Assembly (NCBI GenBank): GCA_018350325.1
Contig: JAEVLN010000027.1
Span: 434,001-498,000, forward strand
DNA: 64,000 nucleotides
Source of the DNA: Globodera rostochiensis
Taxonomy: Eukaryota; Nematoda; Chromadorea; Rhabditida; Heteroderidae
Reading direction: 5' to 3'
Below the pieces are notes generated by a model. That model was not told the origin of the DNA. It did not search any database and saw only the letters and a program-made list of their open reading frames with translations. This document shows positions 56,160 to 57,324 of this stretch, piece after piece; the first letter of the stretch is position 1; each line of letters starts with the position of its first letter. Made by a program: the position numbers and the translations under genes.

Positions 56160-57324
56160 ATGGGCTCAATTGTTTTATTTATTTTGTTCATTTTTTCGCT
56201 GAATTCTGTCCAAGCGATGGTCGTCGCCGAATTGGAGGATCAGAAACTGTCGAATGCTTACAAATTTGCTGAATTGGAACAGCAGAATGCTCTGCAGGAA
56301 AAGGTCGTCAAAATGAAGGAGTATCAGAAGCAACAGCAACAGACCATTGACGACTTGCAAAAGAAAGTTGCCGTGTTAAATGTTAAAATAATTGCAAAAG
56401 GTAATTCCAATAGAAAAGGCATCTGTTTTTTGAGCTTCAAATATTTTGGAAAAGAAAAATAAAAATTTTCATTTTTCTTAGGACTAATCACACAACAAAA
56501 TCGATGGAATTCTACTGCATGTCACGAACATTGAGCCGGATCGGTTGATTGTCCAATTTACTGGGAAAAAGTGGGGTAAAAATTATTCTGTTTAAGAATT
56601 TGATTAAAACATTTTATTTTGAAGAGTTAAGAAATTTTTGAATTAACAACATTTTTCAGGGGAGCGTTCTGTGCTCGCTGAATGGCCAATTCCAAAAAAG
56701 GATTTTGGCCTTTTCTTCTACGAAGTGACCATCTCAGGGGAAGAAGGGTAGGGTAATTTATAAACAATTGCTGTGCTTTTGAGATACCATTATTAATATT
56801 TAGTTTTATTTCCATTGGACTTGGGACAAAACAAATGCCATTGGACAACTCGGTTGGATGGTACAACGGCACTTGCGGATACGATAGCCAGGGCTCTATT
56901 TGGAGTGAAATGGTTGAGGGATGTTCCCACTGGAAAGAAGCTCCTTTCAACTGGGGAAAGCCTTCGTTTGGCGTTGGTGACGTCATCGGCTGCGGCGTCG
57001 ATTTGGCAACTCGCCAAATCATTTACACTAAAAATGGACAGCGTTTGGGTAAGAAAACAGTGCAAAATATATTTTATCATATGTTATTTAAGTTCTAATA
57101 ATTTTGGCTTTAGTGATTTTGTGGATGCATAAAAAATATTTTGCATTTAAATCTTTTTAATAATTTATTTTGTTTTATTTTTGTTTTTTGCAGGAACTGC
57201 CGGTTTTTGTGTCGATTCTGCAGCTGATTTGTTTCCATGTGTTACGTTGTACAATCCTGGCACCAAAATTGAAGCAAATTTTGGCCCGAATTTCAAATTT
57301 AACATTGCCGCCGATGGCATTTAG
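56160..57324 (+). pseudogene. SPRYSEC-type secreted SPRY gene E (one 11-bp deletion)
   Basis: Exons 56160-56400, 56482-56575, 56660-56747, 56804-57048, 57194-57324. The start at 56160 gives MGSIVLFILFIFSLNSVQA, a typical signal peptide. An upstream in-frame ATG at 56103 would bury it, so I prefer 56160. A coiled-coil segment follows (AELEDQKLS...QQQQTIDDLQKK), then SPRY exons with VLAEWPIPKKDFGLFFYEV, GLGTKQMPLDNSVGWYNG, GCGVDLATRQIIYTKNGQRL, FNIAADGI. The first SPRY exon lacks 11 bp after NSTACHE compared with its paralogues, which puts TGA in frame. Everything else is intact. SPRYSECs are secreted cyst-nematode effectors acting inside host cells (established knowledge). This copy is probably dead in this allele. 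Confidence 0.75.

Follow-up and report, generated by a model that had tools for sequence, protein, structure and literature searches.

The SPRYSEC effectors of potato cyst nematodes belong to a protein family whose described members include, besides the effectors, a large background of non-secreted SPRY proteins and SPRYSEC paralogues with transmembrane domains, as far as can be told from the partly available sources (PMC5071358, PMC8359618, PMC10946958, PMC4054857). For G. pallida, the accessible text gives about 300 SPRY proteins of which only about 30 carry a signal peptide (PMC5071358), and one paralogue with a transmembrane domain was called unlikely to be secreted (PMC10946958). A precedent for the gain of a signal peptide is known from the GS-like effectors, where a housekeeping family acquired one and gave rise to effectors, and the authors of that work predicted a common programme of effector birth that includes the SPRYSECs (PMC5919673). 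The available parts of their report do not describe the molecular source of the signal peptide, whereas both of its halves can be traced in the gene presented here. How secreted SPRY proteins gained their signal peptides is likewise not described in the accessible portions of the literature that we searched, which hold no account of a SPRYSEC signal peptide formed from an internal hydrophobic exon and a coiled coil.

The gene of interest, called E throughout, lies in a window of 64,000 nucleotides of the Globodera rostochiensis genome (C20:434001-498000 of assembly G000, 92.6 Mb in 80 contigs; positions without a contig name refer to this window). From an ATG at 56160 on the forward strand its first exon reads MGSIVLFILFIFSLNSVQAMVVAELE, and the UniProt model P0002 (G. 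rostochiensis, 234 aa), which matches E at 100% in four exon pieces, starts at the same ATG. Directly upstream, at 56147..56148, lies a 3' splice site AG (ggactttag/ATCC) that is also found in most genomic copies of this exon (see below), followed by the hydrophobic exon segment at 56149..56195, delimited by these copies and by identity to one of them on contig C67, in which the core of the putative signal peptide ends at 56195. The coiled-coil part of exon 1 spans 56196..56400, with an exon end that agrees with P0002, and opens with the residues SLNSVQA-MVVAELE, which match a neighbouring gene as well as other places in the genome. The N-terminus thus reads M-G-S-I-V-L-F-I-L-F-I-F-S-L-N-S-V-Q-A, with an n-region (MGS) that is devoid of positive charge and a putative cleavage site after V-Q-A that has valine at -3 and alanine at -1. 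Signal peptide cleavage sites follow a -3/-1 rule, and the S-V-Q-A of E fits it.

Downstream, the first SPRY exon of E (56482..56575) has a broken frame by sequence reading and alignment gaps, with an in-frame TGA at 56532-56534 if it is spliced as in its relatives, and P0002 skips this exon in frame. It aligns without frame-shifting gaps in four relatives introduced below (with one terminal base unaligned in the C16 copy) and is kept in P0011, a close G. pallida relative of E whose model begins with M-V-V-A-E-L. The remaining SPRY exons and the stop codon lie at 56660..57324 (about 56660-56748, 56805-57050 and 57193-57321), match P0002 at 100% and encode a recognizable SPRY domain (Pfam PF00622, 46.3 bits against a cut-off of 26.3, frame 56757-57095). 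Around E, a repetitive stretch at 57395-58215 has ataccgaaa/cggtatt motifs within it and at both ends, and SPRY fragments with stop codons on the reverse strand at 53303-53842 appear to be a decayed SPRY gene.

E resembles the SPRYSEC effectors, as described in the available parts of PMC5071358 and PMC8359618, in having a SPRY domain behind a hydrophobic N-terminus. Unlike them, it has a coil between the putative signal and the SPRY domain, one SPRY exon that is broken or skipped, a secretion that is putative, and no DOG box close to its start. This dorsal gland promoter motif, ATGCCA searched on both strands, is missing from the 500 bp before the start codon in E and in each of the four relatives, and one copy lies about 565 bp upstream of E. 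According to the accessible text, 77% of 101 dorsal gland effectors carry at least one such motif (PMC4901422), and SPRYSECs with zero DOG boxes have been reported (PMC10946958). In a crude scan of the SPRY genes in the window for preceding signal peptides, E's was the only one of 36 hydrophobic ATG frames to adjoin the coil block; genome-wide, at least 150 SPRY matches were obtained.

The original prediction held that the half of this signal peptide that carries the cleavage site is homologous to an internal coiled-coil segment of F, a SPRY paralogue in the same window, and this part was borne out. Positions 56196-56245 of E align with 60032-60081 of F at 88% over 50 nt (blastn within the window, E-value 9e-13), within some 10 bases of the place that had been given for F (about 60031-60070), and the alignment starts at the exact end of E's hydrophobic stretch. 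In F, the block sits within a coiled-coil reading frame at 59669..60334 on the forward strand, which around the block reads EESLKSVQAMVVAELK, and a SPRY exon follows at 61129..61452 (Pfam SPRY, 38.9 bits, cut-off 26.3); no Pfam family scored above its cut-off on the coil regions, on the fused exon or on the upstream reading frame at the C7 locus. A search of the window for the hydrophobic exon detected it neither in F nor anywhere else outside E, so that the window bears no trace of a descent of F from a secreted form. As an observation on F itself, its region 59625-59752, which reaches from the end of its exon 1 into the following coil exon, has an inverted copy of 87% identity at 54526-54656 on the reverse strand.

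With exon 1 of E as query, the genome yielded at least 51 matches, which speaks against a chance alignment of a block that is absent elsewhere. Among these matches, five (E included) begin at query position 1, 13 at position 37, equivalent to 56196, and four more at other positions from 36 to 39, which places 17 starts at the junction, and the rest begin further in. The flanks were read at 22 of the matching places: the hydrophobic stretch directly precedes the block at five, exonic flanks of the M-N-E, I-N-E or M-D-E/D kind do so at eight, and the remaining nine have other flanks, among them intronic ones in the C23 and C25 copies. At the sequence level, the homology between the E and F blocks is therefore family-wide, beyond two genes and beyond chance.

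The same prediction took only the hydrophobic part to be new, and here it failed. The window stretch 56144-56198 matches two copies on C67 at 88% (genome-wide E-value 3.3e-12), and at the C67 locus that was read, the hydrophobic stretch lies inside an exon after a 3' splice site, with GTG where E has its ATG. A peptide of 33 residues from this exon finds 49 matches in the genome with E-values of 1 or below, and for 31 of these the value is 1e-3 or better. Across the 48 non-truncated copies (with two truncated ones left out and E added), the position of E's start residue is occupied by V in 24 copies, by A in 15, by M in five, and by T, L, I or S in one each; the five with methionine are E, C16:1021184(-), C27:595318(+), C7:2523998(+) and C27:572627(-). 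An AG acceptor stands directly before the exon in 46 of the 48, and an in-phase donor within 160 nt upstream that closes at least eight open codons is present in 33 of 47 copies, 31 of them with the AG acceptor, a raw count that has no chance baseline.

Public protein models also contain this exon, and it is internal in those of both potato cyst nematodes. The helix of P0001 (G. rostochiensis) has a 100% match in the C67 copy at 151676, that of P0024 (G. rostochiensis, 573 aa) follows a long coiled coil at residue 257 in a protein that ends in a SPRY domain, and the G. pallida models P0026 and P0025 also have it internally; an odd model with a kinase start, P0006, has the hydrophobic exon too. 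In the split-type models found, as defined in the next paragraph, the helix lies between residues 54 and 257. Two predicted proteins, P0025 and P0030, contain two copies of the exon each. In P0031, an upstream exon ending W-R-R-C is joined straight to the coil E-Q-L-N-E-M-R and the helix is missing, as expected of a phase 1-1 cassette exon. We also considered that the hydrophobic part might be the translated polypyrimidine tract of an intron and rejected this reading, since the copies at internal positions are exon sequence, read in frame and turn up in UniProt models. From genomic copies and protein models alike, the hydrophobic half is an old cassette exon that is mostly internal and normally lacks a start codon.

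How the two halves are arranged was compared in a layout of 28 copies, comprising E, four other fused copies, 20 that were classed as split and a third type, with a short intron, in three copies; 22 of the 49 hydrophobic-exon matches fall outside the four fused, 20 split and three third-type copies. In the split architecture, found in 18 of the 20 copies so classed, the hydrophobic exon is internal behind a 3' splice site and is followed by an intron and a coil exon in which at least 30 bases precede the block; in the other two copies the beginning of the block has diverged or is missing. Counted from the first codon of the hydrophobic exon, the block begins after 189-273 nt in 16 of the 18 split genes and after 914 and 1346 nt in the two split copies on C67, compared with 51 nt at the four fused loci and 48 nt in E. 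What E and the four loci lack relative to the split genes is the hydrophobic exon's polar tail together with the intron and the codons that open the coil, about 140-220 nt when set against those 16 genes, in frame and with no added bases. E is neither a split gene, its hydrophobic exon being fused to the coil and carrying an ATG, nor a soluble coiled-coil SPRY gene of the F type, since it has the hydrophobic exon. UniProt models represent both states, with E (P0002) for the fused one and G. rostochiensis as well as G. pallida proteins for the split one. SPRYSEC-family paralogues with a predicted transmembrane domain have been described before (PMC10946958), and the split genes would fit them by description only; the available parts of that work describe no shared hydrophobic exon and draw no link to a signal peptide.

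The junction itself lies between 56195 and 56196. A 24-mer across it occurs eight times in the genome, every time exactly even though two mismatches were permitted, and its reversed control does not occur at all. Its copies are E, the four full fused loci and three solo remnants on C19, C23 and C26 with promoter-side sequence and core; the coil reading frame is present at the former five and lacking at the three remnants. That the coil block was set against the hydrophobic stretch by a fusion, as the prediction had it, is supported by the junction 24-mer and by the split and fused distances. One in-frame deletion accounts for the short distance in the fused copies relative to the split genes, and the identical junction at eight places is most simply read as one event that was copied several times. 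At C19:992549-993894, a solo fused remnant (-) and an internal-exon copy (+) stand head to head within about 1 kb. On C67, two very similar split genes (125-127 kb and 151-153 kb) lie in opposite orientation about 25 kb apart and differ by about 430 nt between hydrophobic exon and block.

Taken together, the old internal exon, the split architecture and the junction point to a hydrophobic-helix SPRY paralogue, not F, as the most likely donor from which the signal peptide of E was carved. We put the probability that it is a re-used piece of a split-type gene, a coiled-coil SPRY gene with an internal helix, at about three in four. In genes of this type, a phase-1 exon encodes D-P-Y-R-I-V-G-x-I-V-L-F-I-L-F-I-F... 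and a polar tail, and the next exon the coil start E-Q-L-N-E-M-R-L-E-M-N-E-S-L-N-S-V-Q-A-M-V-V-A-E-L. Being away from the N-terminus and behind an exon that often ends W-R-R-Y or W-R-C, the helix looks like a signal-anchor helix, in an orientation that is presumed and not certain. Sequence comparison shows that the Val or Ala codon of most copies is ATG in E and its four relatives, a possible start inside a formerly internal exon, and that, with polar tail, intron and first coil codons missing in frame, the hydrophobic core abuts S-L-N-S-V-Q-A. Translation from this ATG would then place the core at the N-terminus ahead of V-Q-A, so that an internal signal-anchor-like helix may have turned into the h-region of a cleavable signal peptide, and the retained 3' splice site could serve trans-splicing. 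By eye, the hydrophobic run of E has about 13-14 residues compared with the usual 15 of internal copies; as it is hardly shorter, the main changes would be a new N-terminal end and a new cleavage-site region rather than shortening. The predicted step from an intracellular to a secreted protein is better worded as one from a hydrophobic-helix type to a putatively secreted type.

The donor and the direction of change were approached by comparing each half separately. Over the 36 nt from its ATG, E is identical to a C67 split gene at 33 positions and to its fused relatives at 31-32, and with the coil half alone, the top unfused match among at least 51 in the genome is C20:24933 (86%, 214 bits), followed by two C67 copies (89%, 207 and 203 bits). 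The 4 kb upstream of C20:24933 yielded no hydrophobic exon; in the C67 split gene, hydrophobic exon and coil block are neighbouring exons. Trees were built from 23 of the 28 copies, excluding the three third-type copies and the two with a diverged or missing block start. In these weak, unrooted trees of at most 93 columns, the C67 and C19 copies are nearest to E in the combined and the hydrophobic tree, the short coil tree lacks resolution, and the fused copies group together in the combined tree and in neither of the single-piece trees. F had been named as the source, and these comparisons move that role to the C67 split type, which is closest to the hydrophobic half and whose coil is among the two best unfused matches of at least 51 listed.

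Three other histories of the fusion have to be weighed against descent from a split gene. Convergence of T-rich DNA rather than homology could in principle account for the hydrophobic likeness, given that the stretch is indeed T-rich, but the 33/36 nt identity to C67 at a genome-wide E-value of 3.3e-12 leaves this reading next to no probability, and the conservation with C67 of the flanks, namely the splice acceptor and GATCCT...CGAATC, led us to reject it together with that match. The original prediction of a new hydrophobic sequence added to the coiled-coil segment of an F-like intracellular gene is in keeping with the fact that the block is common to F and to genes without a detected hydrophobic exon and that the best unfused coil-half match by bits (C20:24933) is one of these. 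It is contradicted by 49 relatives of the supposedly added sequence, mostly an internal exon with the same splice acceptor and codons, and by split genes in which the hydrophobic exon already adjoins the block exon. These internal copies already refute it unless all of them descend from E-type genes, and we regard it as highly improbable.

Nearly as improbable is the reverse course, which starts from an ancestral fused form and derives the split genes from it through insertion, at the junction, of an intron with flanking coding sequence. In its favor, E lies near the middle of the unrooted combined tree on a very short branch. Against this, the would-be insert is found in soluble genes: over the 36 nt of coil before the block, two soluble C16 copies, in which no hydrophobic exon was detected in 9.9 kb, share 25-26 positions with three split genes on C25 and C45 and 20-21 with a fourth, compared with 7-9, about chance level, for E at this position and the same four split genes. 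Since this pre-block coil is common to soluble and split genes, the lost piece is likely ancestral and its absence derived, and on this comparison we rejected an ancestral fused form. The would-be insert is also present in many hydrophobic-exon copies, the junction is identical in all eight copies found, and P0026, a G. pallida model closely related to the C67 split gene, is likewise split.

At the four other full fused loci, on C7, C16 and twice on C27, the fused exon lies inside an intron that separates a series of coil exons from the SPRY exons. By eye, the phases at all four are compatible, all being phase 1; of the upstream coil exons, the three tested have open frames in C7 and align at the C16 locus and the two C27 loci with no gap that shifts the frame. 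All five fused copies retain the ATG, and in the four relatives the reading frame that runs through it stays open for 156-225 residues. Relative to C7, the fused exon (L011 4499-4918, with matching exons in L009, L010 and L012) is missing 24 nt in C16 and, in C27 plus, 42 nt, each a multiple of three, and it contains tandem coil repeats of the form M-E-K-Y-Q-K-x-Q-Q.... For dN/dS we compared C7, C16 and C27 minus, leaving out C27 plus as nearly identical to C7. The three upstream coil exons together gave 0.25-0.33 and the SPRY exons 0.27-0.46, one upstream coil exon alone gave 0.72-1.30 on few changes, and the fused exon gave 0.48-0.90, with C27 minus aligned over 232 of 420 nt; between E and C7, the value for the fused exon was 1.02. 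Low dN/dS in the upstream coil and SPRY exons suggests that the intracellular form is maintained, and the fused exon appears to be open under weak constraint or none.

A fused exon nested in an intron in the same phase means that one locus could make both an intracellular and a secreted form. The four loci might accordingly be dual-product genes. Their products would be a cytoplasmic SPRY protein with a coiled coil and, by way of an internal start that trans-splicing to the retained acceptor could for example provide, a putative secreted SPRY protein; E would then be a copy that took along the secreted half of such a locus and nothing else. This proposal is tentative, and we consider it unlikely on balance. 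Loci with differential use of signal peptides and membrane domains, at which proteins of differing membrane organisation come from a single locus, could serve as a model; what the accessible text describes there is the protein output of transcriptional units (PMC1449889), whereas the four nested loci are known from their genomic architecture alone.

A somewhat better case, if still short of an even chance, can be made that the fusion is real and the E-type exons are not signal peptides, with E decaying and the four loci splicing the exon as an internal helix or leaving it unexpressed. The broken SPRY exon of E, the weak constraint on the fused exon, the missing DOG box within 500 bp and the in-phase upstream coil exons seen by eye at the four loci are all compatible with this, as is the failure to find a UniProt model besides P0002 that starts at the exon in searches limited by protein length. 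On the other hand, P0002 is an independent model that begins at E's ATG and skips the broken exon in frame, and the ATG persists in all five copies together with open frames of 156-225 residues in the four relatives. We favor a re-used piece of a split-type gene as the putative signal peptide of E, and E offers a concrete way in which a parasite protein could acquire such a signal. The sources of both halves, the single junction, the type of gene before the fusion and the number of copies can all be named, which makes secretion gain in this family testable by transcripts and a reporter. Since one and the same exon would form a helix within the protein in one gene and the signal at the N-terminus in another, filters for effectors that demand a signal peptide and the absence of a transmembrane domain, such as the one described in the available part of PMC4901422, depend in the SPRY family on the predicted 5' end.
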